Shown piece after piece: positions 3,151 through 58,991 of a stretch of DNA of 64,000 bases. The first letter of the stretch is position 1; each line of letters opens with the position of its first letter. The notes beneath the pieces are model-generated. The model did no database searches. It was not told the origin of the DNA and saw only the letters and a program-made list of their open reading frames with translations. The translations under genes were made by a program, and so were the position numbers. Origin of the DNA: Acholoe squamosa (Eukaryota; Annelida; Polychaeta; Phyllodocida; Polynoidae); contig OX439035.1 of NCBI GenBank assembly GCA_949317995.1, forward strand, positions 84,073,959 to 84,137,958, given 5' to 3'.

Positions 3151-6100
3151 AAAGATGGCCTGGGGCTGGGGAGGCCCGCATGCCATGTGGTTTGCCGACG
3201 AAAAATTTAGGGTAGATTCACCTTAAGTTGGCCACATACCTGGAATGGTCCACCCCTTCGGTAAGAACAAAAGTGATAATAATGTCACCAGCTATATGAA
3301 TCAATGCTTTCAACCAGTGGGCAATGGTTATTCGACATCTCACCAAATGTTCTTCTTCCTGGAGGGGATTCTTGTCAACCTAGCTAATAGGGTATTACAT
3401 GTACATGTAGTGATTAAACATATTAGGGCGAAAAGCTGCAGAATCATAGGAAATATTGGAAAATGGTAAGGCCTAGATGTTTAGATATGAACAATGTTCT
3501 GATGCTCAGAGCTGCTCCTGAGGGGGTGAGGTATAATGAGTAGAGGGGGGTAGCTGTCTACATCACTCTGTTCTGGTTCACACGGCCACATATCATACTA
3601 ACCGCCGGCTCTCCAGCTCTTTTTTTTACCTCTGCCCCCTCACTTCTTTAGGGATTGGTAGAGATAAAGGCGTAGAATAAACATCTGCTACCAATATCTG
3701 CGGCACAGTTTTATAGCAAATGAGCAGCTCGTTGATATATTGTGGCAGAGTGTGCTTGTGGCGAGCTGCTCGGTGAGATGTTAGGATCTAGTGAGTTGGT
3801 GGGATCTTCTCGTGACGCTGTTCGTTTCATACCTAAAATGACACAATGACAGTAGACGAGGATCGGGAGGTAGGAGCCTGGGGTAGGAGGAGCTCAGCAG
3901 ATTCATCACTGTCCTCTGGTATAGCAATGAAGATGGTGCAGTGATGACTGAGGGTGCTACTGATTATATTGATTACACATAGTAAACACTATGAATACAC
4001 TGAAACTGATTGAACGCATTTCTAATGCTCAACATTTCTCTGGCTTGTGTAGAAGTTCCTTGTGCCCCCTCCAGTTGTGATAATAATTACCGGTACATTG
4101 TGTATCGATGGGAATATTTACGTCGATGGCACTGATTTTGTATTCTGATAAGGTGGTCAGTAATTTCACTGCCTGAGAAGGGGGTCCGAAATTCTGTATT
4201 TTTTTTTTTTTTTTTTTTTTTTTGCATTGCATGGTTCAGCATTGCAAATCGCACTGTGTACATGCTAAACCTAAACCCATCCTTTAACATAATCCAGATT
4301 CAGTATGCCACGCAGTCACTTAAGACTAGCAGATGATATTTAAGATACATGTATTAAGTACAAACACTGTGCCAGCAGGTACAAGGTATGAGCGGCTCCG
4401 AGCTGCTCAGCGCTATGCTCAGACTCCTGGCTACCTATTGCCAACTGTAGTTCTAGCTGCTCCCTATAGACTATAGGTGGATCCGCTGTGATCTTCTCTA
4501 TATATTCCACACCAGATGGCAACCACCACCAAAAAGCTTTACCCTCTGTGACATTAACAAGTCCCCCAAGCTCCCTCCCTTCCCTGGTCTGCATCACGAA
4601 TCAGTAGATAGCAAAGACCTGTGAATAGTTCAAGATGGGAGTTAGTCATGTTTATAAGTTTACTTCCACATACATCTTAAAACATGTTGAGGGCACATTT
4701 TTATGTTCATGTGATTCGAATGAGTCATAGCACATTCTCAGCCGATGCTCTATACACTTAACAAGTTCCTGTCTTGCTACCACCCCCTTTCAACCTGGTC
4801 TAATGTGTGTCACGTGTGATCTCTTGTATACAAAATATACAGTGTTTTACACACAAGTCATTACAGGTGCTATTCAAATGCATTTAAAATAGCAATGGAC
4901 TTTAGCCTAAAAAACAAAGAAAGAACCAGAAGCACATGTGTCCCCCCCCCCTTCCCTGTCAGTTCTCCTTCACATGGTCCTAAGCCACCCTCCCAAGACA
5001 CATTCCCGACCCTGAATTATGAATGATCTGATTAAAAGTTCATCAGTTCTAATGGGTGTCTTCCGATCCCCATGTTGCACTTAAAAGACGGTCAGTCCCT
5101 CAACATGACAGCAACAACAGGGCTATTGCACGGTGGGTTCGTTTTTCATAGTTGCTTAATGATGGGATTCCAGCTTACTCCAATATCATGGTTAGATATT
5201 GAGATATGGCCAATGGGGAGTGAATAGCATACCATAGATTGTAAATGATTTCATCCAGCAGTTTTATAATTAGAGGGAATCACGAGGAAAGCATCTCGGC
5301 ACGATACACTGTACAGCATTTCCTATAAGTCCTACTCCTTAAGCCATGCTACATTGTGGATTTATCTCGTGTTTAGGGCTACATGGATCATCGTATCATG
5401 TAGTGGCAACCCCTGGATAATGCCTCGAGCCGCGCCTCATTAGGGCTAATCCATACAGAGACAGGCACTGACTTTAATCCCGGCTTAAACCAGGCTCTGA
5501 TCCCCCCACTGTCTGTGTCACCATCCTAGAGGTCAGATAAAGGTCACACAGGGCAGAATCACATCAGGGGTGGGTGGAGGTCAAGGAGGACGGTTAGATC
5601 AAGCCCCATTGTTGATGCTGTGTTGAGGATGTATAACTCACTCAATCATGATCATTAAATCTACATGACCTGATATACTACTGATCTAGTACCACCGACT
5701 TCAATATCATCCCCCCAAGGAAACCATGCTGATGCATATTGAATAACATTGACTGAATATACCCCCCCCCCTTTCCTACACTGAACATTCTCTTCCGGAT
5801 TCCCTTTGGCTAACTTCCATATTCTCTTCTTTGAGTTGGCTTCTTTTATGCCTAACCAATACTCGTGGACCTGTTAATCGGTCCCTGCTCAAACGGTAAC
5901 CCAGGCTGCCCGTGTGGGTCAGCCTGTGTACTTGACTTATTGTCCTCAAACAGAAGTCAGACATATCAGCATACAGCTGTAGCATATGGCAAGCAGGTTG
6001 TAAGTCCTCCTGCCCTGAGCTGCCCTACCACAGGTAGAAGGTTCACAACAAGTCTGCCGTCTGGCGGGTATTGAGAGAACTAGGTCCATAGAGCTTGCGG

Positions 6101-7342
6101 AGTAAAGTTTTTACCAGCCTTCTTGCTTATTTCACCCAATCTCGTTGAGAGAAATATTCTAGGGAATGCATCTCTAGCATTTAGGCATTATGGGTCCCCA
6201 TTTGGTGGGAATATTACTATGCACGGTACCTGCTGACATGTTATTATCATAGCAACCTGTGGACAGACCTACATGTACATTATATCCCCTAATCCTTGTT
6301 AGCCAGCGATGACTCTCACACTATTAGTCGAGGTAGGGAAAGCTTCCGTTTTTACTAAATCGAATAGCATTGACTAGGTTTAATATGTCTAATGATAACC
6401 ATATATAATGCCTAAACCAAATTAATTGTGCCGTTTCTGCCTGTGTTTGGTTGTCTCCCAATCATGCCATATGGATATTTGAACCGGTACATGCTGTTTA
6501 ACCTTAACTCCCTATACTGAAGCACGCAGTACTGTCTCAGTGCAGGAGGTACTAGGATAACTGGCAGTTACCCCATCCAACATGGCAGATACTACAATTA
6601 TGTATTAAAGAGATTGAAAAGAGGGAGATTACTCAGTATATCTACTGATCTGTGTATTTCTAACTTTACAACGTCATCTTAACTTATAACTGCAGACTGA
6701 CATTCATGTCTAGAACAGTAGTGTAGAGAGGTTTTAGATTTGACAGTACACATGTACTAGGGTAACTCAGTTTGTTTACAATAACAAGTACTATAGTAAC
6801 TTCATTTGTGTGAGATAAGCTAGTACACAACTTTCAGTTTTGGCTGATTTCTATCTATTAATCCAAGTAGTGCAGTTACTCCAGGTCTTCTCATAAATAT
6901 TCATGCCCTAGCTATGATTCTGTAATACTATTAAAATAGCGCATTAAACATGGAATGAAGACAGGTGTTTAACTTGTTTTCATATGGTCCCTCATGTTAG
7001 ATGGGGTGCCAGTTACCCTAGTACCTTCTGAACTGTGACTATAGTATTATATTGTAGCAAACACGGGGATTTAAAGGGGATAACTGTATATAAAATCTCG
7101 GTTGCTTGTCAACATCGTGTGTTCCTGACACCCATTACGTATTTAGGAAACCATGTGGCACATGTACCTGTGAGAACGTGTAGATACTGTGAAAGACTTT
7201 ATCCTTTCCAAATGGAGATACTGTATTTAGAATCAACACGATTATTCAGTGCGCATAACACGATACAGCAAGAGGTCAACTATACAGTAGCCAATGCTAA
7301 AGATCATCTAGGTCCATCTTGTTTTCTTTCTATTTTCATACC
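3151..7342. other. No gene seen; motif cluster and poly-T run
   Basis: Holds four exact GAGC-W-GCTC palindromes (3509, 3722, 3763, 4400), a run of 25 T at 4199-4223, and C runs near 4944 and 5762. Open frames are short and clash between strands. One minus-strand frame around 5870-5955 reads as a polar, disordered-looking tail, but it has only a weak acceptor. No recognisable product. Confidence 0.5.
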
Positions 7343-7668
7343 CCTGACAGAGGCGTAGGAAGCAAATCTTCATTGGGGGGGGGGGGGGGGGCAGCTGGGG
7401 GTCCACCACAACCACCTTGAATTGTCGGCTCAATCTTCATGACGCCTATACATACATATATAGAGAATTTGTATAGAAAGATAATTTTTGGTGAATTTCA
7501 GATCACATAAATCAATTTTGAGATGAGAGTTTTAGCTTTTTATGCAATCTGTAATGAATTCTTGGCAAATTTAGGGGGGGCCCAAACATACTCAGGCCCC
7601 ACCTTCTTCATGATTGGGGGGGCCCAGGCCCCCCTGCCCCCCCCCCCTTTTCCTACGCCACTGCCTGA
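7343..7668 (-). mobile_element. hAT-like MITE, 5-bp TSD, copy 1
   Basis: The element is 7348-7663 (316 bp) with ends CAGAGGCGTAGGAAG and TTTTCCTACGCCACTG. It is flanked by the exact 5-bp direct repeat CCTGA (7343-7347 and 7664-7668). The second copy at 40742-41094 has the same body in the opposite orientation and its own 5-bp duplication. CAG-type ends with a 5-bp duplication fit the hAT superfamily. Long G/C runs lie just inside both ends. No transposase is encoded. Confidence 0.85.
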
Positions 7669-10600
7669 GGTAGACCCCGGTCCTCCTTGTCGCCCCAGAC
7701 AAGCCCTGGTCTTCTGTAGATTGTTAATATCCCATCAGACGTCGGTCCCGTAGGAATCAGCAGACGGCTTCTAGTAGGAAGATTGCCGCGCCCCCTGGGT
7801 TTAACCCCTGGAACTAAACCCACTCCACCGTCTCAGTGCCTCCTCCTAACGAGAAAATAGGAAACTGGAATGACAGGGAGGCAGGTTGCTGCTGCCATCT
7901 GGCGTCCTTAACTACTACGTGCACTAGGGACTTGAGCAATGTTATTTACAAGACATCCTCTGTCGTTCCATTTACTCCTTATTGGTAGTTATACTGGTTA
8001 TGGTCGATAGGTCAGCCATGAGCTAGACATGGTTCCTGCAACAAGGAGCTTATATCCTGGCATGTAACACAGCTTACGTTGTTCATTATGGTAGCATGTT
8101 CCTTTATTAAGTGAGTCTATCTGACATATTTGACCAATGGTAATACATGTATATCTGAGACATTTAGCTATATGCCCGTGGAATAGAGACAAACATCACC
8201 TGTGGGTTCACATAACAGGTGTGTCAATGTGTGTCACCAGGTGAGCTAAGGTCATCAGCTCAATACTATCACAATACTACCCCAGCCTCCTCCAGTAGGT
8301 GGGTATCGAGGTATTCCTTGCACGTGCACTGTACCACAGTCAGTGCAGGTAGATGGGTGGTAAATGAACCACACCAATGCCTGCCATGTTTTATTCCACT
8401 AACCCTCTTTTCTATAGACGCTAGTAGAATATGTATCCCGCAAAAGCCACATTATATTAGTATAAAGGAGAAGCAGGTCCACCACACCACAATGCTTGGT
8501 GCCCCCAGGTTGTGCACCAGCTACAGCATTGAACAACATACATGTACGGCGTATTTTGGATGTATACATGCCTCAGTTGGCCTCTTTTGCACAAGGCATT
8601 ACCTCTTTCCAATAGGTGAGATTTCAGTTTCTGAAAACCAACGCGACAAAATGGCAGCCCATAATGGCAGCCCATACACCATATTCTGCATAACTCGATA
8701 CATCCCTATATACCCCGTCAGGGCTAAGCTGCTCCCTGGGTCAGGTTGATGCAGTACTGGTAACCATGGCGACCGATCAATAATAATACCAGTCGGAGCA
8801 TTACTTGAGCTGGTTGCTGGTGTCCTCTTCCACTTATTGCTGTCCGTCCCACTGCTGGGACGCCGACACCGTGGCACCAGCGGAGTATTGATTTCTGCCA
8901 CTGTTTACTTAGTACAGAAAAAGAGGCCTGAGTGATGTCTGGGTGGGTAGTCTGTGACTGACAAGTATGAGTGATGTCAGTTATCTATAAACGTGAGTAA
9001 GGATAACGAGTTAAAAGCGTTACTGTTAGAGGCAATATGGTGTAAGGTTGGGGGAAACCATGGAGGATAATCTCTACGGTGGAGCTGAGGATAAGTAGAG
9101 GACAGCCGCACTGCCCCAAAGAATTCATGAAGAGTAAACAAGACTGTTAAGAAATCCGATGATTTCGCATGCAAAATATATGAGAATACTAAAGTTCCTA
9201 ACTGATCCAACGTCTTAAAAACGTAGACTCAGAGTTATTATCTCGACAATACCAGCTGACCCTACAATAAAAGAAAGTACGTGTAAAAAAAAAATAGACC
9301 CATTACACGTTCCAAATGCAATCTATGCTCACAGTAGCACTGTGTTACAGTAGATTTTAGCAGTCGGTACATGTACTTTAGTTCAAAACACTGCTGATTG
9401 TCTCATAATTTCCATGGCAGCTATCATCAGTGAAGCATGTGATATGTCAGTTTTCTTCTTTGAGGATAATGTGTGCATCTAAGTATGTTAAACTGGTTGG
9501 GGCATCAGTGAGCAACGTAAACCTTGTCTACAGGTGGGCTTCCTCTTCCCTGTATACCCTTTTTAGACCTTTTTACACCCTGTACTTAGTGACCTGGACC
9601 ACACATCTACGCCCTAGTGCGACAATCCAGGTATCTTTTATCGAGCTATGCCAGCCCACTGTTCCTGTATGTATGGATCTGCAGAGGAGGGAAGATCGTC
9701 TATAGCCCTCCTTTGTTGAAAGTCGAGTTCCTCCTGGTCCCTATCAAACTAAATAGCCCACATCTACACAGACACATCTACCTGTCACTGAATACTTTAA
9801 TCCACTGTTCATAAATAGTTCAGTGCATTGTGACAGTAGGCTATCAGTGAGCAGCTCAGACCATTGTGACGGGTGACACACAGGTGGGAGCTGCTCTATA
9901 ATAGTTAACACAGACTGTATAGAGGGCATAGTCCATGTGTATATGTCCATGGGTAACCTATATTGTGGTTACATATGTTATTTGATATACCTTACAGGCA
10001 TGCCACACCATGGTACTGGATGGTACCTCCAGGGTGGGGTAGTATTGGTACTATGAGCAATAGGTGCGAGCAGCTCACACATAGCACTCACAGCCTGGGT
10101 ATGATGGTGGTAGGAGGGAGGGGGGGGATGGGTTCAGCAGTCTGGCCTCAAGGTAGGTCGATCAATCATCTGTCTGGGGCCTCTGTCCATATTACCAGCA
10201 GGGACGGGTCGGCTTTGGTAGGAGGCTTAGAGCTGGAGGGATGCCGACATCCCCAGGGCTTTTGGGTGGGGTAGGGTGGTAGGAAGGTGAGTGTAGAGGA
10301 AGTCTAGGTTGGGCTGCACTAATCATTGTGATGAGTCACGACTGCGAGCACCTCTAGGACTTTGCGTCATTTCCTGAGCTACTCAGAACATAAAACTTCA
10401 ACAATGAGGTGTTCTTAGTAGCAACTACAGATCTTATGTGCTATGTACATCATAAGTTATTGTAATCCATATGTCATGACCTGTACCAGACATCAATATG
10501 CGGATATTTTAGTTATTTATCCCCTACTTGTTCTCGTCTAAGGTATGTATTACAAACAGCTAATATCCGGTATACGGGTTTGGGCAGTTGATTAGGCTAG

Positions 10601-16600: not shown

Positions 16601-16663
16601 CTCCGCCCACTCCTCTCCCAAGTGAAGGAGGGGGGGGGGGTTGTCAACATAAAAAACACTCAC

Positions 16664-16788: not shown

Positions 16789-16799
16789 CTGGAAAGGTG

Positions 16800-21335: not shown

Positions 21336-22316
21336 TACCGTAATCTCCCGCGTAGAAGGCGCAGCTCGCGTAGAAGGCGCACCCCCAACTCAGAGAATGG
21401 CTTTTCACGTAGAAGGCGCACGTACCTCTTCTGGATCAATTCCTGGAAAAACCCGCGTATAAGGCGCCCCCCAACTCACAGGGGGGCTGTTTCGCGTAGA
21501 AGGCGCCCCCCTCCCCACCCCCCCCCACCCTCACTATTGTACACCTCCCGGTCTGCCGCGGTGCTGGGTCTATGAGTTCAAGCTGTCATCGGCACACGGT
21601 CGGCGTCAATCCCGCCGAGCGCCCGTCGACACCTCCCGGTCTGCCGCGCTGCTGGCTATATGAGTTCAAGCTGTCATCGGCACACGGTGTGACGGTCGGC
21701 GTCAAACCCGCCGAGCAAATCTACACCGACCGGCTGCTGGCTATATGAGTTCAAGCTGTCAGCGGCACACGGTGTGACGGTCGGCGTCAAACCCGCCGAG
21801 CAAATCTACACCGACCGGCTGCTGGCTATATGAGTTCAAGCTATCATCGGCACACGGTGTGACGGTCGGCGTCAAACCCGCCGAGCAAATCTACACCGAC
21901 CGGCTGCTGGCTATATGAGTTCAAGCTGTCATCGGCGTATGGTGTGCCTTATCCCCGGCGAGCGCGTCGACACCTCCCGGTCTGCCGCGGCGCTAGCGCT
22001 ATGAGTCGATGCTGTCATCGGCCCACGTGTTCCCTACACCCCGGCAAGCCACACCGCATTGTCAACCTGTTGAGTCTATGCTGTCATCGGCACACGGTCG
22101 GCTTGAACCCGCCAAGCGCGTTGACACCTCCCGGTCTGCCGCGGTGCTGGCGCTATGAGTTCAAGCTGTCATCGGCGCATTTTCCCAAATGAGATGTTGG
22201 AAAAACCCGCGTATAAGGCGCACCCCCAACTCAAGGCAATTACCCTCCCGCGTATAAGACCCAGCAGCATTTTGTTTGGCGTAGAAGACGCGCCTTCTAC
22301 GCGGGAGATTACGGTA
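21336..22316. mobile_element. 977-bp TIR element (TA target site) carrying a satellite
   Basis: The element is 21338-22314. Its first 25 bases, starting CCGTAATCTCCCGCGTAG, are repeated exactly in inverted form at the right end, and TA flanks both sides. A TA duplication is characteristic of Tc1/mariner-type transposition (known). CGCGTA(G/T)AAGGCGC boxes recur just inside both ends. The middle is an 85-bp tandem array. No transposase frame is present. Degenerate relatives of the boxes occur near 17752, 30300-30450 and 50115-50305. Confidence 0.85.
21545..22180 (+). repeat. 85-bp satellite inside the TIR element
   Basis: Unit starts (GCTGG or variant) fall at 21563, 21651, 21736, 21821, 21906, 21992 and 22146; the three central steps are exactly 85 bp and the outer ones 86-88, with a diverged pair between 21992 and 22146. 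Conserved words are TATGAGTTCAAGCTGTCATC, GGCACACGGT and GGTCGGCGTCAAACCCGCC. The array is much more G/C- and CpG-rich than the surroundings. Confidence 0.9.
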
Positions 22317-22949: not shown

Positions 22950-25014
22950 GACGGTCTGACCTATTACACAGATATGTCATTGTGCCAAGGATAACCCGAC
23001 CCCCCCCCCAACCCCCACACACAACTATTCTTCCCAAGACAACATAGATGAGGACATGTACACTGCTTACCAGTCATCGTAGGGGTACATTTGTATTTGC
23101 ATCGCGTCCATTGGACAGAGAGCACCTGTCAGGCAGGGGTAAGCATATAAATACATGTATGTATGCCGAGTTGACGAAAGGAACCTTTGGTGGCTTTCTC
23201 TATAGACACAACCCTAGATCTTCTAGATCCCTAGATCCTGTATTTGCGCACTGAAGGAGCAGTCGAGTAGCAGGGAGCTGTCTAACGTTGTTCTCACAAG
23301 GGGGTTTGAAAACTTGGGTTTGTCTACACAGACATCCAACTGTTTCGTACAATCGTCTAAACTCAGAATTTGTAGCCAATATATGACTACAGATATGGTA
23401 TGATTGAAGATTTTGCCCATTACTTTTTATTATCTTAGTGCAGACACTGGGTGAGTTTGGAGAGAAAAAAACACACATACCCGGTACAAAACACACATAC
23501 ACTAGAGCAGCTCAGAGAAGCCACAGAGCCTATCAGTACAGACGCAGAGGTACCGGCAGAGCCTGTCTACTACATGTGTGGCAAACAGAATACACAGAGT
23601 TGATGTCCAACACGCGATGCCCCGATCTGTCCGCTCTATGGACGGCCTTCCGGGGTCAGTGAGACTCCTGCATGTGGAATCCCCCCCCCCCCCATTGATC
23701 CTACACCTGATCGATGGTGCTGAATACCTCCTGTGTCCAGGCACTTAAAACCAGCTTTAATGTGCCAGGATTGTTCTGGCAATAGAAAGTGAATGGGATT
23801 TGAAATAACAATTGCACCTATTAATTGGTTTGGGGTTTGATGGTAGACTGGTTTGGCATACAGATGGGGTAGATGAAAGGCGCTTTATCCGCATTTCCTA
23901 ATGAAGCAGGTCTCCACGTTTACATCACTAATGCTAGGCACATTGGCAGTCCATGTACAAGAACATATTATTGCCACGCTTAATCACAGAATTACCCCCC
24001 CCCCAATGTATTAAAGTCAAATCAGTCTGTTCCTCAATAGGACACATATTACGATGAGCAATCCACTATCCGACCGATTGATGTTAGAAAAAGGTGTTTG
24101 TTTGTTTAGTTTTAATCTATGGATATCTACATATAGAATGTGCAGAAAGCCCGGGGCAGAGAGTAGAAAATTTGAAGCCTCAACAATCCATGCCAACTAA
24201 CACTCACTGCCTCAATATTGGGATTTGTACAGATTTGCCTGCTGTATTGCATATTCATTTGCATAGTCTGGAACTCAAGGACCACGTTCTCCAGACTCCG
24301 CATTATGCCAGATGCACACATTTATAAACACAAAACGTGAACAGACTCCCCTGCGGCTACAAGGACGTCGAGTCCAATTACTGAAAGGGCTGTATTTACA
24401 GAAGATAGCCCATAAACTAGCATCACCCCCGTTGCTGCTTCAGAGATCACACAGTTGCTAGTTTGGAGAAGGGAACGTTGGGTCTCTTAGATGAGGCCAC
24501 TTAGATGGGACTTTTCTTGTTTCCTGAATAAAAGAAAAGAATTTCGACCAATGCTTTACGGCCATTTGTGGCAGAGCTGGTCCACTAGGAAGCAAATGCT
24601 GTGCTTCATAACAGTATCTATATTCCATGTGTGTTGTGTTACCACATGCAGATTGAATAGAAATGTGTAGTCTGCCAGCACAGTCACAGCGCTACCTGCC
24701 CATACTGGATTCAGTGAACATGATTGTGTGGTCATCACAGTCAAGAATATCAACTTCTTCTAGATGTATTCTGAACATTTCCTGGCTTTCCAAGAAATAC
24801 GGGTATACGTACAACTGATCCTGTCAACCATTTCTAGTCGCTTCTCTTGCAGCAGCAGGCACGTCTGGATGGATTCATAAGCTCCTTGCACAGAAAGCGA
24901 AATCCATTGGTCCCAGTGTCACAATGCTCCACGTTACAATATCAGCCTCCGTACCAGGTACCTGGTATCCCCTCTGTACCCCGGCCTACCTCACACTGAG
25001 CCCTAAGTCCATAT
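22950..25014. other. No gene confidently seen
   Basis: Contains C runs (about 22999, 23683, 23996), a weak candidate exon at 23071-23125 (see findings) and the 16-bp palindrome TACCAGGTACCTGGTA at 24952-24967. No terminal-repeat element recognised. Confidence 0.4.
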
Positions 25015-25622: not shown

Positions 25623-27410
25623 CTAGCTGTGACAGTTGCACACCTACACCAGCGTCCCGATACCCTGGTTACTACCAGGTCTTGTCACAGTGGCACACAT
25701 ACACGATGGGGTAGCGTCCCGTTGCCTTGACTATGAGAGGAGCTGGGGGTCGTCTCTCTGTAAACACTACCCCTGTCGTCGTCAGGCCCCATTGTAAACA
25801 ATTCCTGCCCTCAGCTGTGATTTGTAAGCAGACGACTTCCCGTCACATAAACACCTCTCTCTAGCGCTGCCAGGGGCCGCTGGAGGTGCATCTCTATGGT
25901 ACCCACAGACAAGAGCCAAGGGAGGGGTATATACAGGTATAGACAAGACCAGGTACATGTTGTGTAATTACACGACATGTCCCAGAGACTGAGGGTACAC
26001 CCTACATTCCAGCACCAGATGAACTATCTCTCACAGCGATGATGTAGCTAAAGGTCACTAAATGTTCAACCCACAGCTCACATGTCACGAACACCAGCTC
26101 AATGTGTCCTGTCCTGGCTAACCATACATAAATCATTTGACATTCGTTTATCTGTGTTTTTTTTTCAAAAGTTTATACAGATAGACTTGACCTAGTTCTT
26201 AAGTCGCCTTCTAATTTGCCCCGAGGTTCTAAATACCAAAGGACTATGATGGGTTCCATAGAAAGGATACATTAAAATCAGGCGATAATGAGAGGGTTGT
26301 CCCAATGAAAGATACAATCTTTATTCATGAGAGTAAAATGAACCAACGGCTATCCCCTTTCTTCCTCCAGATACGTGTGTTTAACTGTGGAACTGATAAA
26401 TCTTTGACACAATAACAATACAGTTTGCTTATGTCAAAGTTTAAACAATAAGTATGAATTCCATTGAGTTGACTCATTCACCAAAAAACATATGCTTGCA
26501 ACCAAAGAACCTTCGTATTACCCTTACATCACACATATAGGGCATTAGCACATTAGGCTATGGAGGCCGCCATTAGACCCCGACTGCACTATGACTAACA
26601 CCTTCAGCCCCCGTCTCCGCAGTAAATGCCAGGGATGCTTCCCATTGGTCAATAATACAATAGCCATGTGCCGTATAACAGTCCACAGCCCTTAGTTTAC
26701 GAGCAGCGCTTTCCTGCAAACAAGCAGTGTTGAGCTGCTCCTTTAGTACAGAACAGCTCACAGTGAGAGAGCTGGGTCCGACTGTGTCCCCAGCGGGTCG
26801 CCTTTAGGCTATAGTAAATATCAGGCCATCTGGCCAGGCTGCATGTAACTCCATGTATATTAATCACTTTAAGACCGGCAATGACTTGTGCATGCACAAA
26901 CAATAAGTCTTTTCCAACCTCATCTGTTTAACTGTTGCGAGATGCACTCGTCATAAGTATTACTTTGGGGTTTTGCCATATGTCTACATCAGTGGCCTTT
27001 TCCCTGTACTTACGAGTTTGCCTAACTATTTAGCCAAAATTAGGGGCTAAATGAGGGACGCCCCCCCCCCTTTTTTTCAAAATCCTGGATCCGACCCTGT
27101 ACATATCAATTACCTACATAATTGTTAAGCATTAGATACCATAATTAATCCCATCGGGTTGAGGGTATCCTATTTATATTTAGTATCACTGTGTAGGCCC
27201 ATTCCATGTTAAGTCTATCTTTTAGGGGTCGTTTTTGAAGGTACAGCACCCCACAGTGTCATACAAGACGAAATATGGTACTTGACTTTACAGGTCCATA
27301 AAGAGAGTAATAATAAAGATAACAGAGAATTTATATCACCATCAGGTCCGCCTACACATCACCTTTAATTTGGTACCACTACTGTCTTTGTGTGTAATAT
27401 ATTAATTATT
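25623..27410. other. No gene seen
   Basis: Contains one GAGC-W-GCTC site (26732) with a near copy at 26752, and a C/T run at 27061-27077 followed by TTTCAAAATCCTGGATCCG that looks like a MITE fragment. No exon recognised. Confidence 0.5.
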
Positions 27411-29550: not shown

Positions 29551-30749
29551 TATTTGTGTATCACTAGAGGGTGTACTGTATTTTCCAATATGTACTACCC
29601 GGTAGTCTGTTTTTTTATTCAGGGCCAAAACCTTAATAGTAAAGATCAGTAGACATTTTAGTATAAGTTATGGCGTATCGGTCTCTTTGCCCTGGAGAAT
29701 CTGTTAGCACTCAGGTTCTAGAAATTACTGCTTATGTTCATTACATCTTTAAGATTCAACTCTCCGAAATGAAAATACTTTTAATACACTACTTACAGTG
29801 TACATCAACCTCCATATTCCATGAGCAAAGTGCAAATACCAGAGCATACAGAGAATAAACTAATGATGATAAACTAACATCATCTGAAAATTAATCCCAC
29901 TGACCCTGTCGCCCATGACCCCCACCCACAAGACAAGGGGACACATAGTGTAACCCTAGCACCAAAGTGAACTCATTCACAGTTATTAGTCCATGCGGGA
30001 AAGCAGCTTACGTCCATACTCTACCCATGTTGGGGGTCATAGGTCACGATGAGCTGCACACTGAGCTGCTCCCTGTATTAATCACCCGCATAGTTTTTAT
30101 ACCCCATCAGACATCAACACTCACACAGATTGAGACGGGAGGTGAGGTATACAGGTTTATGTCTGTCAGTGGGGGTTTGGTTCTGATACTTGATATGGGG
30201 TATTGTGTCATGGGATGAGGGCAGGCACGTGTAGATTGAAATGGGGACGGTCGAGGGTGTGTCAGTATGAAGTAGCAAAGAGTTATAGCAAAGCCAACGT
30301 AGACGTATAAGCCGCACCCTACGCATGTGGAGCACCCCCAACTTATGACAAGGCTATAAAGCCTTATTAAAGGCACACCTAGGGCTTGATTTCGGGCTGT
30401 TCTAAAATGTAATACCCTTGCTTAAAAGGCGCATCCCAAACTTTTCCTAATCCTTTAAGGTGCATTCTAAGAGCTCCATCCTCACGTATACACCGTGTCT
30501 TATATGGGGGGAATTATATATATGTGGCTATTTCCAGTCATATTGTACTTTTGCCATACAAAATGTACGAGATCACAAGCTGCTCTTCCAGTGGCATTCA
30601 CAGTAGCTCGGCTACATCGTTTTTCAATTTGCATGTATAAAGCCAGTAGGGCTCACATTGAAAGGGTACATTGTGTGCTGTAAAATCCATACGAAATCGT
30701 ATCATTTTGAAATGCACAGAACCGAAATGTAATTACAATACATAAGTTG
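29551..30749. other. No gene seen
   Basis: Holds one GAGC-W-GCTC site (30063) and a degenerate stretch at 30300-30450 with GTATAAG.CGCACC and AAAAGGCGCATCCC words related to the 21.3 kb TIR element. Confidence 0.45.
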
Positions 30750-42053: not shown

Positions 42054-45000
42054 CAAATTAGATAAGTCCTAGATATGAGTCTTGGACCAGAGGTTTACTT
42101 GAAATTCCCTAATGCACTGGTAAATTTGGTGTCTCCCTTGTCATTCCCTGCACATCCCTCCTGGTTTGATGGATTCCTGCTTTGCTCGGTCCGGGTCAAC
42201 TCATTTAGATAAATGTGACTGAGAAAGGCTGAATTATTGTTATAAATGAGCCTAAGAGGCAAGAAGCCAAAGTAGGTCAGGTCAGGGCGAGCTGCTCTGC
42301 CTGAGGAGGTGGAGGCCAAGGCAAGTGACCAATCAGCATGCGGGACATAATTGTGTGGGTGTCATTGGGGGTTAAATACATGGGTGACCTATGTGGAGGG
42401 ATGGCCAATGTCCTGTTGATCATGTCATGTGAACAGGGTCTATTAGGTGTAACTGGGGTAAAATATTATCATAAACCCATGAACATGTCTTGGACCCTAG
42501 AGAGCTGCTCTGGCATGCACATGAAAGAAAAGTATAGTTACGTCAATGGAGAATAACAGAATGGAATTGAATATGCTAACAGGAGAAAGCAAATATGTGG
42601 TTGGGGCGGGGAGGGGGTCTTACAAATATTGAGGAAGTTAAACTATATAAACTAGCGGCTATTTATTTATGAAGATCATACACGTGAAGCTTCCCTTTTG
42701 GAACAAAGGAGACACATCAGTAGAGTGAGTGATATGGTAGCCAGTCCTTTTGACATCTTAATATGTTTGGGCTGTAGACCTCCTTGGGCTATGCTAGGGT
42801 GATGGACACATCTGTGGGTCATCTGTAACGACCTGTCAACCTTTAGCCACGCCTGGTCTACCTCTAACCAGACCACGCGTGCATGTCGACACACTGGTAA
42901 AACTGAGGCACTCAAAGAAACTCACCTCTTTTTCCATGCCACATCCAAGGCCTTCTTTACACCAATATAGAAAAATACCGTACATGTGTACACAGTTATT
43001 ACCGGTAAAGGCATTTTAAGGAGTGTAGATATGGAACGAATAGTATGTAAACAATATGTTTATTGACAACTACTGGTCCTATAATGATCCCCCTCACATC
43101 ATCATAATTATACTTGAAATGTGAACTAGCCTTAGATCTGCTGAGTGGAGAAGAATTAATGTGGCTTTTAGTCTGGACAAGGTTTAGGCAAGCACCCTTC
43201 AGCAAGCAGGCACAACTGGCCCTTGCCTTCCACCCCCATAACCCATCCTCTCCTATTCCCATTTCCCCCATCCTTCCACCGCATGTGTGCTCTTGGGTCT
43301 CACAGCGCAATGAAAATGGACTATCAGTGGCCAACGCATGGTGTTGTGGCCATGGACGGGATCGAATGCTAGCCACAGTAATTTGTGTTGTGGGAGAAAA
43401 AGGCCCTGCAGTTATAGGGCGCGTGCTATCAGGGCCCGGTAATGAGGGGAGGCGGCAGCCGACCTGGTTTCTGCTCCTCCTGTGTCCATAGGCCCTACAG
43501 AACAATGACCAGTGATCAAAGCTCTCAATGATGAGAGTACAAAAGCTAGGTCTATAGAGTATACATCATAGACCGAAAGCCACACTGAAGATGTATCCAT
43601 GTATCATACCGACTGCATTTACATCGTGCATCTGCTTACAGCCACTGATAGTGAAATATAGACAATAGATCCTGTCCTGACGATGGCATACATCCCATCT
43701 ATACCGGAACATCTGTAAGCCTCGATGCTGGTTTGCCGTTTAATATCACTCATTGGTAGGTGTTTTACCGGTATTCATTAATGAAGGTTGCATCTCTGGA
43801 TGAAGGAGTTATATGCCGCACCACACACTGCCGTACCACACCGTACAGCATTTGATATGAACACCAACACAATCTTTGATCTCTCAGACCTCCAAATTCC
43901 ATGCCGCATGGTGCCGCACAAATGCCCCGTTGGTATGAAAGGGCCTAATAATCTACCGGAGGTATGGGAGGGGGTGTCTTTGAGATGACCTCAGATCAAG
44001 CTGCATCTGATATTCCTTCCTAACAGGACAGTTGTATTGTAGAGACGAGTTCTCCCAGCCCGACAAACAATAGTCGATGTATAGATACAAGGCGTGCCCT
44101 GTATGATATGGTATAGTATTTTTGTAGCCCCTGGGTGTGGCACAGTGAGGGTAGGTTCAGAGCTGGTGTTTTCCGGGGTGTTGTGGCATTCGCCACAGCC
44201 TCCCCTGTCATAAATACAGCTGAGATGACCAGGCGTGCTGTCCCTCAGCCCCTGGAGGAGGAATGCAGCCTGTCACTGACTCACTAGCCTCCTGGGGGCT
44301 ACCTGCAGCCTCCTGCATGCCAAGGTGATGTAGGAATTAGAGCTGGGCAATGAGACAAGCAGCAGCCTCTGGAAGATGTGCCCCACATACAGCTGTCCTC
44401 CCAACTATGAAATAAAATACATTACATCTATTGGGTTTGTTTTGTTCGTTTGGATAGTTTTACATCCGATCATTCAGGAATTCAGGAACTACACTTGGTT
44501 TATTCCCTCTGTATTTCCCTTTATATGTACAGGGGTATCATAAAATTGTCATGAGAAAAAGAGCAATAGGAATTTTAGGCACTTACGTAGTAATACAGAA
44601 TTGGTAGTGATGCAGAATTGGTCCATTCCATGTTGTGTTGGCGGCATTAGTTCATAATGCCATATAATTTCTAATCATATTGTTTTTCTATATAGCCTCA
44701 ATGGTATTCTTATATCATGTACATACATGAGTGTATAATGTTAGTTATCGAACAGATTTTACATACGCATATATTCATATTAAGACTTCACATGGCTAAT
44801 AAATAATGTATATGCCATTTCTCTCTGCGCAATACTGCGATTTATATTCATATCCCACATAATCAAACCACGCCCTCTAACCATTACCCAACCCAAACGT
44901 ATAAAATTGCGCTGTAGTTATTATCATACACCACATCCATCGATAGACTCCCACATTAGAAAACCTGTATATTGGGAGCCTGGAGGTACGTACAGATGCG

Positions 45001-48240: not shown

Positions 48241-48241
48241 C

Positions 48242-51400: not shown

Positions 51401-53363
51401 CTGAATACAGCAAGTCTAAAACCCTAGATGAGGTACCAGAGGGAATCAAGGGGTAGAGTATTTTCGAGGTGTACTAGTTTGTTGGAAGGCAAGCTGTGGG
51501 AACGGGCTTAGCTCTGTCACCACATCTCCTGCCATCCCACCCTAGGGTGGTGAATGGCAGCCCTTTCTTCTATGTCATGTCTATAATTAAAGTGGATCTT
51601 TGTCAGAGGATTCCAAGGAAAATTACTTAATTATCCAAGATACATTATCGGGTATTCATTCCTTTCAGTTCCTTTTCATTTAAAGATTTATTTCTACATT
51701 GTACAAGTGCAATGTTACTTACGCAAAAGCCCGGCATGAAAGTAGACGGCATAGAAGAAGTAGTCCAAATTCGCTCGCCACTAAAACGTGGGACCAGGCA
51801 TAACTCAAACGATGAATACCAGATGCATATTTCAAATCTAGAACACCAGTTGTAACGGTCGTATTACCGTGCCCAACGTTGTATTTTTCTCATTAGTCTG
51901 GTGCCGAGATGCCCAATACATGTACGGCAGCGACAAATCATGACCATGATAGAACCTACATTCATTTCAGACTCCCAATCTCTCAACACACTGGCCTAAA
52001 AGAAAAGACCCAATCATAACCAAGCTTCATGCATGTGTATTACATTCCTTGGATAGCGATACACAAAGTTGTTTCCATTAGGATTGCAGAGGCATGGCAG
52101 ATTGGGGGGGGGGGCATTTGGGACATGATACTGACCATTTTCGGCTTAACCTATCAGATATGACATTTGAAAGGTCATTTAAAATACTTAATACATATCG
52201 CGGTAACCCTTTCTGGTCACATAAAACAGTATTGTTGAGGCCAGATCTTTAAGATCCAAATCTCCACCATGGCAGCTCTGACATCACTAAGGCCACAGTC
52301 TCAGCGCCGCCCCTTTACCCCAGGCTGGTATGGTTATTTCTGAGGAGCCCCCCCCCCCCACCCCACCTACAGATTGGTATATGACCAAAAAGGATGTGTC
52401 CTGACATTCAGGCCGTGCAGAGCCTGTAGTACCACAGGCATTAGAGGCGGCCCTGGATGTGGCCTGCCTAACATGCTGATTACAGCCAAGTACTGCATCA
52501 GGCAGTTTAGTCTACCACCATCAACCGGCCTTATCCTTCTCTCCGTTGACCACCACAGCCAGCCCCCGGCACTATCTTCCCACAAGTATGCCCTACGGCT
52601 GCCTCCTGCCCAGATCTTGTCCGGGATGACCTTGTCCATTGCCGGCTGACCGCGCGCTTCAGGTCGATGGCACTGCTTGATCGCATCTACCCCTCTAACC
52701 CCCACCCATGTCCGCTGCCCCCAACCCCCACCACACATGTTCTTAGTTACCAGACCCAATGGGCAGATGGGTTTTCCTGTTTCTATCATTTTCTTTTTCT
52801 TCCGCCTTATCTGCTTTAGACTTTAGTACCTAGGTACTTTGCTGGACCTGGAGCCAGAGCTGGAGCCAAGCAGAGCTGGTTGTCGACCGGAAGTGGGCAC
52901 GCCCGTCACAATCACTCTCCCAGCATAATGCAGAGATAGAAACTATCAAAGGTACAACTTGATACCGCTGTCAGGAGAGTGACCTATCTTTCATCCAGAA
53001 TCTGACAAGTTGACGATGGTGCCTGGAGATAGATGTCTTCATGCTTTTGCTGCACATGTCTAGACTTTTCTTCTGTTTTATACCTGAGAGACTGGAGCAG
53101 GAACCCACATGCTGACAGTTATTGTAATAAGTGTCTGTCTGGGAGTTGAGGTAAAGCTCCCCAACTGAATTGGTATACAGTCGTGTGCTGCAAATGCATT
53201 CTTCTATTCGGTAACATACTGCATACTACATGATTGGATTCTGAACAATAGAAATAACAATCATCCATTCATTGCAATGTGACTAAAGTCTAGTAACGAA
53301 CGCCCTTTGACCGTATGGCGACTCAGGCTTATCCCAACAGGTTTTCCGTATCAGAGAACAACA
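48429..53363. other. No gene confidently seen
   Basis: Contains a 36-bp tandem duplication at 48768-48838 (TTTCCATAAAGAA...TATTCATATATCCA), a decayed relative of the 21.3 kb element at about 50115-50305, and G and C runs near 52110 and 52350. The 140-codon minus frame at 52367-52789 and its 91-codon plus competitor are unrecognised. Minus-strand 52748-52826 has a charged frame, but this follows from a purine-rich tract. Confidence 0.4.
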
Positions 53364-53661
53364 CACTGCAAAAAGGGTGTTTAAAGATACACACCAAATT
53401 TTCACCAGCATTTAAACACTTAAACTCTTAAAGTGTTTAGGTGTTTACCTTTTAAACACTTATTCTCAAACACCTAAACACTGAAGTGTTTAAGTGTTTA
53501 GCATTTAAACACTTGGTTAAACACTTCTTATTTAAACATGTTTCAAATTGAACACGTTTAGCACTTTAGAAGCGTTGAGAAAAGTGGGACAAATAAGTGT
53601 TTAACCAAGTGTTTAAGTTCTAAACACTGGTGTTTAATCCCTAAACGCTGTTTTTACAGTG
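53364..53661. mobile_element. TIR element filled with AAGTGTTTAA boxes
   Basis: The left end CACTGCAAAAAGGGTGTTTA is mirrored by TAAACGCTGTTTTTACAGTG at the right, with possible 2-bp CA direct repeats outside. In between, GTGTTTA or its complement TAAACAC occurs well over ten times in both orientations. CACTG-type ends with a 2-3-bp duplication would fit a CACTA/EnSpm-like family, but this is tentative. Non-coding. Confidence 0.75.
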
Positions 53662-54703
53662 CAGGACTGCTGTAAGTCTGGGCGGGTGATATAAAGTCAC
53701 AGACACATGTACGAGCAGAATACACCACTGTATACACACAGACTTAGCAGCTCTCAATGAGCCTCCCCTAGACTTGCTAAATCTCATCCTCTATGCCCTT
53801 ACTTTATTTACTGTCTTTAATGTTTCCCTACTACACTATGTTGCATAATCGGACCATGCTGGCTGAGGTTGAGAGTTCTGTGCAAATGCAAATCAATTAC
53901 ATGTACTTGGTTCAACTGCTGCCGTTAGTCATTACCTGCCTAGCCTGTGATCACTACATCTTCTAATATTAATACATCTGTCAGCGTCAGTTAGCACTGC
54001 CTAATGAGGGGGTCTATACCACATCTAACTCTGGCCCTTGAGCAGCTCAGTACGAGCAGTGAGCGTGTTATCTGGACGCTCTTCTCCCTGACATGGGCGG
54101 CTAGATAAGAGCGTCATTGCAAACACTGCCCCCACCCTTCTATAAGGGCGTATTGGTTATACAGTACAGTCTGCCCTGTTATTAGTTTACATCGCTACAC
54201 TGTTAGATATAGAAACATTATAAATACGATTTTCTCTCCATCAATTTCTTCCGACAGGCAAGCGCGTCCCTCCAGACACTCGCTACAGATATACACAAGA
54301 TGAACCACCAAAGTGGGCAAGATGGTGGCTTCCATGTGATATGGCAATCTCTGTGTGCAGGAGCAGGGCGTTGTTCGCCTTCTGCTCTACTGGCGGCGAC
54401 CCATGTAGCGGCGACCGAGCAGCTCACGGCAAGAGCTGCTCCCCGAGCTGCTCCCAGCAGACCGCATAGTTTCGGGGTGAGTCATCGCCCCCGCTCACCC
54501 ACCACAACGGCCACTTGTCTCTGACAGCCCTTCTCTAATGCACCTCTGAGTGCTTGACAGGTCCCCACATCGTGAGCCATCGTCACAAAAATGACACTGG
54601 TGTCAGTTCGATAGTAGTTAGCAAATTGATAATTACCAATTCACGTTATTGATTACCCCATTGTTCTAGTACACTTTAATTTATGTTGGCCAATGACATC
54701 TAT
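53662..54703. other. No gene confidently seen; motif cluster
   Basis: Holds four GAGC-W-GCTC sites (54040, 54417, 54433, 54445), the last three within 37 bp of a CpG-richer patch (54290-54520). Competing frames of 69-74 codons on both strands there are unrecognised. Confidence 0.4.
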
Positions 54704-54858
54704 ATATATCAGAGATGCCACTCACTGGCCAACATAAAACAGGAAAACTGGACTTTTGGACACATTTTCCCAGGAATTTAACATAATTTAATACGGGTAT
54801 CTTGGAATCAAAACCAGGAATCCCTTGGATACCAGGAAAAGTGGGGTCTCTGATATAT
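54704..54858. mobile_element. CAGAGATGCCACT MITE, 6-bp TSD
   Basis: The element is 54710-54852 (143 bp), with ends CAGAGATGCCACT and AGTGGGGTCTCTG as imperfect inverted repeats. The 6-bp ATATAT flanks both sides; since this is low-complexity sequence the duplication is less secure than for the other copies. A separate pair TTATGTTGGCCAATGA / CACTGGCCAACATAA straddles the left end. Confidence 0.65.
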
Positions 54859-57800
54859 TAACTATGAAACTCAGTACAGGTATGCATCAGGTATACATAT
54901 ATGTCTGAACAGCTATTTTGTGTTAGGTTGAAATAGGTCTGCATATTTCATTTATTTGCCTTGGGTAGATCTAAACCATGAGTTTTTAACATGACACTAC
55001 TGCAGATGTGCACGAATGTGGTAGCCAAAAAAATGAAATAGAAGCACGGTGCATGGGGTAACTGATAGAGTAACTCCATGAGGGGGTGAGAGGAAGCATC
55101 ACGTAGTCACCGCCTCCTACACATCATCATAACAAGGACTGCGTCTCAAGACGCCGCAGGGTCCAAGGTCAACCGTGACGTCATTCAGGTCATGGACCCA
55201 TAGGGTCACAGAGCTTTGGGGTCAATAGTCACCAGGCCCGCATCAAAGACATCTAAGGGTAGCTAATAGTGTATACTATGCAAATAGATAAATAAACAAA
55301 CACATGAGCAAATAGAAATAAAATGTGAAACCCATATTTGGCTTCATGTGTGCTTAGATCCTGATTCAGTGTGATTTCGAATTGAGGAAAGCACTTCAAT
55401 GTATGTACGGTACATGTATAATCATGCATTTATCAACCTTGGAATTGCCAAACATGTACTGCTGACATATTGTAGCCCCAGCTGTATAGAGATGGAGAAA
55501 CAATGAGCCTTTAACCAGACTGGCATTCAGCAATGCTAAGCCGTGACTAAGGAGGCACTTTCCATTCATCCGGTGCATTTTGCCGCAGCGTCCAACAAAA
55601 ACACTATATGACGCTCCATAATGGATGAACAACACAGCAGGAAGTAGCATTGCCATTGGAGAAGACTGGGAGCTGACGAGCAGCTATTGGTAAAAAGTAG
55701 GGCCAACCTGAGTTGGAGAACAGCTGAAGGGAAGAAAAGAAACAGGCGAAGGAAAGAAGCCGTGACATACATAGCTCAGAAACACGAAAACTATTTTTTT
55801 TAGGTTTAATAAGAACAGCTGAATTTGAACTGAAGAAGGCGTTATTATTTATGATTATCACTTATTTCCGTTTACAGAGCATCTATGCGAGAGGGATGAT
55901 AATAACGGGGTGTGAAATGATACCAGTTACACAATGAGCAAATGGGAATAGCCGAAAGGGCAAGGAGCAGCTCCCCTTTAGATACCTGAGCTGATTGCAC
56001 TACTTATCCAAAACGGCTACCCCGGAAGTCGTCGGCTTTGACCTTGGATGTTCCCGTAGTTGGCAACTCACACTCTATCTGTAGTGCAACCAGCGAAAGT
56101 GACCCAGTGAATTAGAAAACAGTAGAAGTTGTGTGACAAGCATAGGGTTACAACAGTAGGAGTTGCAGTGCTTTTGGCGCGTGGTGGCGCCACTACTTTT
56201 CGTGCGAGCAGCGCCGCAGGCGCTGGTCTCCTCACCAAAAGGCTGGTCCATAACTGGGGCACTGGGGTAACCTTCCATCCGCCCTGTGTTAACTGAGATC
56301 TGAAGCCAACTCCCCCACTTCCCGTTCTTGTACAAGTACAGTACTCCCCCCAATGCAATCCTCCAGTGGGTGCCTGGCTCTGAGCCCAGTCCAGCACCGC
56401 CCAGCCTCAGTAACGGACAGCTAGCCAGCCGTCAATACCAGCACTGTGTGCAGTATACTGTATGGGCGGCGGGTGTGATTGATAAAGAGATTTACCCCAT
56501 ACAATGGGCAAGAGACGCACGCATACAGGGGCACCAGGGGATTTTCTCAACCTCAGCTCAGAGCTTCCATCACCCATATAGGCATGACCTGGCCAGTCCC
56601 TGGGTGTCCTTTTCAGTGCCGACACCTTTACTGACTATAACCTTTGATGACTATAGCGCCAAAGCTGCAAAGTCTGCTCGTTCCCATGAGTCATCATTTC
56701 TGGATATTCTGACCATTTACTGAATGGATTCTCTCTACTGAATGTGGGGTGAATAACAATGTCAACACAATGCCCTCCTGGCTATGTTAACCCTTCAGTT
56801 ACTTTTGAGCTTTTCTGATGTCTTATATATTCCCACTGATATATTCTCCTATCAAATTTAAATATCTTCTTTCCTCCTGTACCACTAAAGATCAATGCTA
56901 ATGCTATTGTGTCAACCCCATACATACAGCCCTGTCTTGTTAGGCTCTAGGCCCCCTTAAAAGAATGGCTCCTCGTTCTATGTGCACTGGTTATATTTAT
57001 GGCATTTGCCCATGTATAGCCCTAGCCTCCATGTCCTTCAACATGCAAGTTGGGAACGATGTTAGCTCCCATATTCTCCCTATAAAGCCCTCCAGTACTA
57101 TCAGCAGCTATCAGAGCCTGGAGGCGACAGGCACTAGAGGGAGGTATAAAAGGGGCACAATACACATTGCTCCGTCTCTGGAAACCCCTTTGTTTCCCTA
57201 TCGGGTGCCGTTAAAAGTTCTGACTTTTCATTCCAGCTGAGAATTTTATTAGGGCTTCCATTAATAACCTACATGGAGCTTCGTTAAGAAGCAATTACCA
57301 TTTCATGAATAAGGCCAGTTATTTCTTCAACAGTCCCGTCGTCATCTGAATGCTTATTAATTAACATCGTGAATTGCTTTTAATGCCTCAAGTGGAACAA
57401 ATCGAAAAGTGAAAGAATAAATTGGCATTGGCCTTTAATGGGACTTCGTGGTTCGTATGTGGGTACCTAGACTAGTTCCAGTCTCCGCATTATCTGTGGA
57501 TTGTGGCGTATTGACTATAGTAGTGCTGCAAGGCATTCATCCATGGCTGAAACATGTTGCTGGCCTTGTCAAGTCTAGTAATTATCTTCTTCTTTTTTAT
57601 ATGTACTGTATGCTTAATAGTTTGGGGAAGAAGAAAAGCTCGAGCTGCAGTATTCTTTTTCTCTTTCATCTCTTTTTAGTACATGTAGTCATCTCATCGG
57701 AGCATGACTTGTGGATAGGGGTTTAGGTGTCCATGTGAACTTATTAACAAAATCTAAAGTCGGCGTATGCTAATCCAACAAGAAAAGGTATCCCATTTTT

Positions 57801-58991
57801 ACAGCTGAAATCATATCCTGCGCCACTAATTCAAAAGGGAGCAGCGATACCGACGTAAAGGGATTCAAATCTCACGGGACAACAAGCCTCGGGGTACCCC
57901 ACACCGTCACTAAATGCTGGGACCATTTTATAGGTGTTTGGGGGATTGCTGTCACTGGCAGTGTGACTGGACAAAGGAAATATGGCACAATCCTTTAACG
58001 GTCGTGGTAACGTGAGTGTTAACATAACATTTCTACGTTCATCTTATCAGGAATATCGCAAAACACTGACTACACATCTGACAGGGAGGGAGACATATTC
58101 TCGGCTATTTGGTGATTATATCAATACATATTCCTTAATTGAAACCAAGTGTACCGTATGTCATTTGCTAATGAAATACTTGTTAATGAATTATGAGCAA
58201 TTCGAGCACTCCCCTGGGATGGTGCACAGTACCGCTATGTGTGTGAGTCGTTGCACAATCATGTATCTAAGTTCAGATCAGAGAGGGTTTTATTTCAATC
58301 CATGCCCTTGGTGTTGCCCTGATGATCAGATTGCATCGAGAACATGGGCTGTGTGATATCTCTTTTTTAAATGCAGGTACAGAACTGTTTCGTACAACTG
58401 TATCAGCAAGTTTCACATTTTAATATTAAAACCAGTGACTCTATATCAGATGAAAAACAGAAATATAGTTCTCTTTCTTTATACGGCTGGGCCTAAATTG
58501 TACAGTAGTTGGTTGCAACAGTCTCTGGGGAATTTATATTGTTCATTGTCTGCAGTCTCCACATAATCACGTATTGAATGCTAGTTAGGTGTATTAAAGT
58601 ATGGTTTCTTTTTCTAAACACACCTCGTGTGGGGTAATGGAACATCACTTACGAATGACAGAAGCATATGCATTCTGCACATCCAAGCAAAAATAGCCTT
58701 TGGGCTCACATAACAGGGTGTTCATCTCCAAGCTGGCCTAAGGAGCTGCTCTGTCAACAGCACGTGGGACGTGAGCAGCTCAAAAATAGGAAAACCAGGT
58801 CATAATGACATAGAAAGATATAACATGTAGGTTACAGTGACTGAGTTTAAAATAGCATTGTTAACATTCTATAGGGTCTTGTGTGCTCTCTATGTACACA
58901 GGTTGTTGACCTTTCACCCTTTGTGGGTTGTGTTCTGTGGTTACAGAGCAGGGATCAAGCTACCCGGGATCGTGTGGAATCTCAATAGTAC
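54859..58991. other. No gene confidently seen
   Basis: Contains GAGC-W-GCTC sites at 55965, 58743 and 58773. Frames at 56068-56397 (minus, two overlapping), 56328-56723 (plus) and 57982-58356 (plus, 124 codons) were read and not recognised; they overlap or lack splice signals. A CRE-like TGACGTCA lies near 55177. Confidence 0.4.

Follow-up and report, generated by a model that had tools for sequence, protein, structure and literature searches.

The window, i.e., the whole 64-kb stretch of DNA that was analysed, carries 19 matches to the palindrome GAGCWGCTC (Table 1), against a mean of 0.20 and a maximum of 2 in 100 dinucleotide shuffles and 0.37–0.42 under an order-2 Markov model. Among the odd 9-bp palindromes with at least four copies in the window, this word has the top enrichment (50.7-fold, the next reaching 9.8-fold), and its density is about six times the genome mean. 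The original prediction had listed 18 exact copies; all 18 coordinates are right, and the count is one short (23505). The window contains only two open reading frames of at least 150 amino acids. No Pfam match was obtained in the six frames of positions 1–45,000 or in two frames per strand of 49,001–64,000, Rfam at gathering scores returned nothing in the window, ARAGORN found no tRNA in it, and nothing was found in the three plus-strand frames of the right flank (L066).

Table 1. Copies of GAGCWGCTC in the window. Strand is that of GAGCAGCTC; in minus-strand rows, GAGCTGCTC is the reading on the plus strand.
Feature	Position	Strand	Evidence
GAGCWGCTC copy, GAGCTGCTC on plus strand	3509..3517	-	exact match
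GAGCAGCTC, first of 41-bp pair, opposite centres	3722..3730	+	exact match, spacing
GAGCTGCTC, second of 41-bp pair	3763..3771	-	exact match, spacing
GAGCGGCTC, one mismatch, G-centred, 10 bp ahead of exact copy 4400	4390..4398		mismatch count
GAGCTGCTC; further one-mismatch copy at 4454	4400..4408	-	exact match, mismatch count
GAGCAGCTC, first of 39-bp pair	9849..9857	+	exact match, spacing
GAGCTGCTC, second of 39-bp pair	9888..9896	-	exact match, spacing
GAGCAGCTC	10068..10076	+	exact match
GAGCAGCTC, absent from original prediction	23505..23513	+	exact match
GAGCTGCTC; one-mismatch copies at 26701 and 26751	26732..26740	-	exact match, mismatch count
GAGCTGCTC; one-mismatch copy at 30051	30063..30071	-	exact match, mismatch count
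GAGCTGCTC	42289..42297	-	exact match
GAGCTGCTC	42502..42510	-	exact match
GAGCAGCTC	54040..54048	+	exact match
GAGCAGCTC, triple cluster, CpG-rich stretch	54417..54425	+	exact match
GAGCTGCTC, triple cluster	54433..54441	-	exact match
GAGCTGCTC, triple cluster	54445..54453	-	exact match
GAGCAGCTC; ETS-like CCGGAAGT 57 bp off at 56022; repeat starts at 55995	55965..55973	+	exact match
GAGCTGCTC, first of 30-bp pair	58743..58751	-	exact match, spacing
GAGCAGCTC, second of 30-bp pair	58773..58781	+	exact match, spacing

The copies are grouped, five gaps being shorter than 50 bp where uniform placement would give 0.27, and the close spacings of 41, 39, 30, 16 and 12 bp had been correctly predicted. 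Their flanks are unrelated, again as predicted: over columns -30 to +30, the sole column above the printing threshold, 23 bases after the motif start, is weak (0.59 bits). The GC content within 30 bp of the copies is 0.507 as against 0.435 for the window. No window copy (0 of 19) lies inside a repeat when the window is compared with itself, with an even sample of 197.5 kb and with short pieces, a comparison that detects very common families only; the copy at 55965 lies 22 bp outside one such repeat (55995–56227). The constant A or T at the centre holds for the listed matches, follows from the 9-mer that was chosen, and has an exception in the G-centred copy at 4390. The claim of many one-base variants is borne out in part (25 against 9.6 expected in the window), whereas two-mismatch variants stand at background (115 against 108 expected); of the six variant positions given as examples, five are off by 1–3 bp, and for that placed at 8708 the nearest variant lies at 8726.

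A genome-wide density near background had been named as the outcome that would speak against a selected signal. Instead, we counted 71,505 copies in 1.48 Gb, an 11.8–13.5-fold excess over Markov models of orders 1–4. The C/G-centred word is found 4,057 times (1.9–2.5-fold), and the reversed word and its C/G-centred form reach 1.1–2.6-fold and 1.8–4.3-fold, respectively. The dyad also extends outward: in 65 copies left after dropping 17 near-duplicate loci, GAGCAGCTC is followed by A 35 times and by T 4 times, and in the folded flank the preferred bases are T (-1) and G (-2); the preference for A comes back in 26 of the 49 first copies of the listed A/T pairs described below, counted by eye. 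The half-word GCTCA occurs 29 times near copies against 9.9, and TGAGC 14 times near the window copies against 7.7, an enrichment that may in part be explained by the GC-richer flanks. Close pairs are likewise in large excess. Those with a spacer of 3–33 bp number 10,576 genome-wide against about 107 expected from density, a count that takes in a minisatellite and repeat families, and pairs in one orientation, an A-centred with a T-centred copy, at a spacer of 5–35 bp number 1,097 against about 27. The start-to-start distance is 19–23 bp in 318 of these 1,097 pairs as against 177 if evenly spread, a bin that includes pairs from the list of 49 behind the period test. In that test, which covers the 49 listed pairs only and was framed once they had been seen, 38 pairs lie no more than 2.6 bp away from a multiple of 10.5 bp (p 0.008–0.014), the best period being 11.1 rather than 10.5 bp.

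The question arises as to whether mobile and tandem repeats alone, i.e., LTR-like or other dispersed elements and a minisatellite that carry the word as one of their parts and give it no host function, could account for these numbers, which we consider unlikely although it is the most serious of the alternatives. Of 83 copies examined, most of them taken from one contig's first 3 Mb, no fewer than 35 belong to groups common to several loci; dozens of copies sit in a minisatellite near C1:7.177 Mb whose unit is about 19 bp long, and LTR-like pieces hold one to four each. Against this explanation, the window copies lie outside the repeats that could be detected, 9 of the 11 copies in the even sample lie outside the LTR-like element that was recognised, and once one minisatellite row is set aside, the 49 A/T pairs on the list differ in their spacers. 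Among the LTR-like pieces, whose identity as LTRs is suggested by AATAAA and by similarity read by eye, the order GAGCTGCTC, TATA-type box, GAGCAGCTC is found in eight of the ten that were aligned. Of the other two, L001 has no second copy, and the first copy of L033 carries two changes. Nine of the ten came to light via the motif (only L010 comes from the even sample), so that the presence of the motif in them is partly due to selection. A second LTR-like group shows no BLAST similarity to the first; read by eye, L073 and L074 have two direct copies with TATAAATA between them, and L045 has ACAAATA in that place.

It seems somewhat probable to us, judging from sequence, that GAGCWGCTC is the site of a dimeric regulator, that it is arranged in homotypic clusters and that retrotransposon-like elements make use of it, the protein being putative. 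The full dyad, roughly (g)TGAGC-W-GCTCA(c), would be recognised by a sequence-specific DNA-binding protein acting as a dimer, with TGAGC as its half-site. In host DNA, small homotypic clusters of two to four dyads, spread over tens to hundreds of bp, would probably act as enhancer-type elements, and adjacent dimers probably touch, since close pairs are strongly favoured and distances of 19–23 bp, about two helix turns, are over-used. The same putative factor may serve at least two unrelated groups of LTR-like retrotransposons with copies on either side of a TATA-type box, and these groups would in turn spread further copies of the dyad. The original prediction of a dimer-binding site or short selected signal agrees with the dyad, its symmetric outer bases, the clusters, the over-used spacing and the placement around TATA-type boxes; it fits less well with a motif that is not specific to the window and that elsewhere has many of its copies in repeat families, and binding stays putative. 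Clusters of several identical transcription-factor sites within short distances are a known arrangement. GAGCWGCTC resembles them in its identical dyads spaced by tens to hundreds of bp, its extended half-site and its over-used spacing near two helix turns, and differs in that all nine bases are kept more tightly than expected of such sites. As in homotypic clusters, the site recurs at short distance above chance both in the window and genome-wide (repeats included), and the 19 window copies, set against the loci compared, do not form one family, while elsewhere many copies sit in several repeat families. LTR promoters also carry transcription-factor sites, for instance p53-type sites in primate ERVs. 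There, too, repeat families hold and spread a host-factor-like site near a promoter, whereas GAGCWGCTC has copies to either side of the TATA-type box. The p53-family half-site, RRRCWWGYYY, matches in its outer RRRC and GYYY; with a single central W (one base fewer) and strict GAG and CTC, GAGCWGCTC does not fit it, and we know of no factor for this word.

A general core-promoter or promoter-proximal element of the host, located near gene starts, is in our opinion improbable. It would agree with the LTR-like pieces, in which TATA-type boxes lie between copies, with the ETS-like word beside the copy at 55965 (Table 1), and with locus L026, where two copies lie beside CCGGAAGT, GGGCGTG and TGACGTCA. 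A small test showed no sign of the proximity to gene starts that had been proposed for examination: the regions upstream of 20 Ras-family first coding exons, drawn from the matches that start at profile position 1 or 2, contain 1 copy where 0.60 is expected in 12,480 bp, with 600 bp read upstream, so that introns in 5' UTRs may place true starts beyond. In addition, neither co-factor words (ETS, CRE, NFY, SP, MEF2, E-box, TATA and others) nor CpG-rich bins show a clear enrichment or association near the window copies.

Slightly less probable still is maintenance at the DNA level, in which a methylation- or repair-linked process of the kind proposed for HIP1 creates and keeps the word without any regulatory protein. 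HIP1 is a highly iterated palindrome of cyanobacteria, GCGATCGC, which has been tied to DNA methyltransferases (PMC4390886). The two are alike in form, both being sharp short palindromes far above chance, and the HIP-type pattern of many exact copies with unrelated flanks is found in the window and in the counts, although partly not elsewhere. HIP1 is bacterial, whereas GAGCWGCTC belongs to a eukaryote, and its clustered and paired copies, the over-used spacing of close pairs and the positions flanking TATA-type boxes in LTR-like pieces argue against such an origin. Finally, coding constraint, by which the codons GAG CAG CTC (Glu-Gln-Leu) or GAG CTG CTC (Glu-Leu-Leu) would inflate the count, is very improbable: elsewhere two copies, in L059 and L061, lie in what by eye looks like open coding frame, but the window, with only two long reading frames and no Pfam match in the frames listed above, has its sixfold density nonetheless, and codon use accounts for neither the pair spacing nor the dyad.

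Returning to the dimeric regulator, it is tempting to go one step further, although we hold the following more extended version to be doubtful. A hitherto undescribed factor of this lineage, transcriptional or architectural and acting as a dimer, would bind TGAGC-W-GCTCA dyads set at least two whole helix turns apart. It would mark tens of thousands of places, most of them distal elements, and two or more retrotransposon groups would each have acquired its site separately, in pairs flanking a TATA box, so that one switch would serve retrotransposons and host enhancers alike. If true, one short word would open the regulatory system of a lineage, its clusters would predict enhancers in an unannotated genome, and the dyad could be used as bait for the factor. 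The LTR-like pieces would then illustrate a possible use of host regulation by retrotransposons, and the word itself would be a well-defined eukaryotic short palindrome that is near-exact at tens of thousands of places. In the literature searched, no paper contains GAGCWGCTC or either of its 9-mers as a whole word, and GAGCNGCTC, AGCWGCTC, GAGCWGCT, two 11-mers and GAGCNNGCTC inside words gave no title naming such a motif. Another word, TACATGTA, was considered as a sister signal on account of its 25 copies in the window, but it was set aside because its genome-wide count of 180,113 is no more than about double that of its reversed control (92,562). The string GAGCWGCT does occur in an article on virus-free cassava (PMC6472600).

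Nineteen exact copies of the near-palindrome GAGCWGCTC lie in the 64-kb window, namely all 18 positions of the original prediction and one that it had overlooked (table). Dinucleotide shuffling gives an expectation of 0.20 (maximum 2 in 100 shuffles) and an order-2 Markov model 0.37-0.42; of the odd 9-bp palindromes present four or more times in the window, GAGCWGCTC is the most enriched at 50.7-fold, the runner-up reaching 9.8-fold. The one-base variants said to be many number 25 against 9.6 expected in the window, two-mismatch variants staying at background, and within 60 bp of exact copies the one-mismatch density is about 9.5 times that elsewhere in the window (5 near, 20 far). Both the grouping of sites and the disparity of their flanks are borne out: five gaps between neighbouring window copies are shorter than 50 bp against 0.27 under uniform placement, and the copies have no common surrounding sequence, a single weak column (0.59 bits) exceeding the printing threshold. 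GC content within 30 bp of window copies is 0.507 against 0.435 window-wide. The right flank of the window carries three copies, a 30-bp pair among them, and the left flank none.

The window spans C1:84,073,959-84,137,958. The assembly comprises 1.481 Gb in 63 contigs, those touched (up to C17) measuring 63-127 Mb each, and holds 71,505 copies, one every 20.7 kb on average. A stretch of 64 kb would thus have 3.1, and the window is about sixfold denser than the genome mean. Far from the near-background density that would have told against the original prediction, this is 11.8-13.5 times the 5,284-6,052 copies predicted by Markov models of order 1-4, whose training set was an even sample of 20 stretches with 197.5 kb of sequence. 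Against the same models the C/G-centred word (4,057 copies) stands at 1.9-2.5-fold, the reversed word (2,172) at 1.1-2.6-fold and the reversed C/G-centred word (3,336) at 1.8-4.3-fold; the models therefore set the expected number of some words a few times too low.

The symmetry extends beyond the nine letters. In the 65 copies left once 17 near-duplicate loci had been dropped, among which some repeat-family copies persist, GAGCAGCTC is followed by A in 35 and by T in 4, and the position after that holds C in 25, which folds over the dyad into g-T-GAGC-W-GCTC-A-c; in 26 of 49 listed A-centre/T-centre pairs the first copy likewise has A as this outer base (counted by eye). Within 75 bp of copies (19 loci dropped) GCTCA occurs 29 times against 9.9 and AGCAG 34 against 14.1, an enrichment to which GC-rich flanks may contribute.

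Copies also come in close pairs. Those separated by 3-33 bp number 10,576 genome-wide against about 107 from density, a minisatellite (table) and repeat families included; direct pairs amount to 3,226 and 3,250 on the two strands, and the minisatellite predominates among the matches listed. In the even sample of 20 stretches, 11 copies fall in four, some of them 24, 34 or 48 bp from the next copy. A-centre/T-centre pairs with spacers of 5-35 bp total 1,097 against about 27 expected. Start-to-start distances in 49 listed pairs cluster at 19-23, about 31 and about 42 bp, and in 38 of them the distance departs from a multiple of 10.5 bp by no more than 2.6 bp (51.6% expected); a period test gives p 0.008-0.014 with a best fit of 11.1 bp, on the very list from which the phasing idea arose and in which two pairs have a copy in common with another pair. 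Genome-wide, 318 of the 1,097 pairs fall at 19-23 bp against 177 if even, an excess clear in size. It is these 49 pairs and this one bin that suggest helical phasing.

At least 35 of the 83 copies in the window and in loci L001-L064 (L002 left out) belong to groups common to several loci, some of which may be segmental copies; the collection is weighted towards the opening 3 Mb of C1, the contig carrying the window. Two groups, read by eye, are putative LTRs. The first ends near AATAAA and aligns well downstream, its upstream U3 diverging between subfamilies; a TATA-type box is preceded by GAGCTGCTC at a distance of 7-10 bp and followed after a few bp by GAGCAGCTC, an order kept in 8 of 10 aligned pieces (the second copy is missing from L001, and the first carries two changes in L033). 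The motif itself led to nine of these ten, the exception being L010 from the even sample, so that selection accounts for part of the motif's presence in them. L025 has four copies. The second group (L045, L073, L074), without BLAST similarity to the first, has three copies per locus; two direct copies enclose TATAAATA in L073 and L074 and ACAAATA in L045; this family contains CTAAAAATAG/CTAAATATAG words, which we take to be MEF2-like.

As the word is sharp, symmetric, clustered, spacing-biased and found on either side of TATA-type boxes in two LTR-like groups, the best explanation, which we favour somewhat, is that it forms the dyad of a putative dimeric DNA-binding protein serving distal elements and retrotransposons alike. 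More tentatively, the candidate would be an undescribed dimeric factor whose helix-turn-spaced dyads, mostly in distal elements, were captured independently by at least two retrotransposon groups. That repeat spread alone accounts for the abundance seems unlikely: spacers differ in 49 of 50 listed A-centre/T-centre pairs, the other being the minisatellite, which such spread does not easily explain, and none of the 19 window copies lies inside a repeat by self-comparison and sampled loci, a small sample that would miss families of modest copy number. The low power of that check and the finding of LTR-like pieces through the motif take some weight from the protein reading and lend it to repeat spread. 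A general host promoter element near gene starts is improbable. Although L026 and one window copy (table) do have promoter-word neighbours, CpG-rich bins and known promoter words have no clear association with the copies, and the roughly 600 bp upstream of each of 20 Ras-family first coding exons, where 5' UTR introns may conceal true starts, contain in all one copy against 0.60 expected, leaving gene-start enrichment unsupported. A maintenance process like that proposed for HIP1 (PMC4390886) is less probable still, since it would predict neither close pairing nor TATA placement. A literature search found no paper with GAGCWGCTC and, for related words, no such motif in titles.

Features located in the window and on C1
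Feature	Position	Observation
GAGCWGCTC, additional copy	23505	
GAGCWGCTC copy	55965	22 bp outside a repeat
TACATGTA, examples	3396, 3402, 4346, 53898	25 copies in window, about 3x genome mean
CpG-rich tandem repeat	21541-22180	unit about 85 bp
CpG-rich stretch	54259-54477	bounded by acceptor-like cttccgacag and donor-like GTGAGT (by eye)
Nested tandem repeats	59426-61049	units about 35, 106, 115 and 83 bp; TGATCACTCA in some
Minisatellite near C1:7.177 Mb	C1:7,176,851-7,181,125	unit about 19 bp; GAGCTGCTC in most listed units

The window has a CpG observed/expected ratio of 0.44 and only two ORFs of at least 150 aa; no tRNA or Rfam family was found in it, nor any Pfam match in the frames searched. 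The host, by inference eukaryotic, is probably a CpG-methylating animal. The CpG-rich stretch, a possible exon or first exon as read by eye, has three GAGCWGCTC copies shortly 5' of its donor-like end. The tandem repeat with a unit of about 85 bp is CpG-rich while the genome is otherwise CpG-poor, and pieces adjoining the nested repeats are also present in sampled loci. TACATGTA, similar to an Iroquois homeobox palindrome, occurs 180,113 times genome-wide, only about twice its reversed control. TACCGGTA has six copies in the window and one in the 197.5-kb sample, and poly-C/poly-G tracts abound across the window (78 nine-base C or G words).
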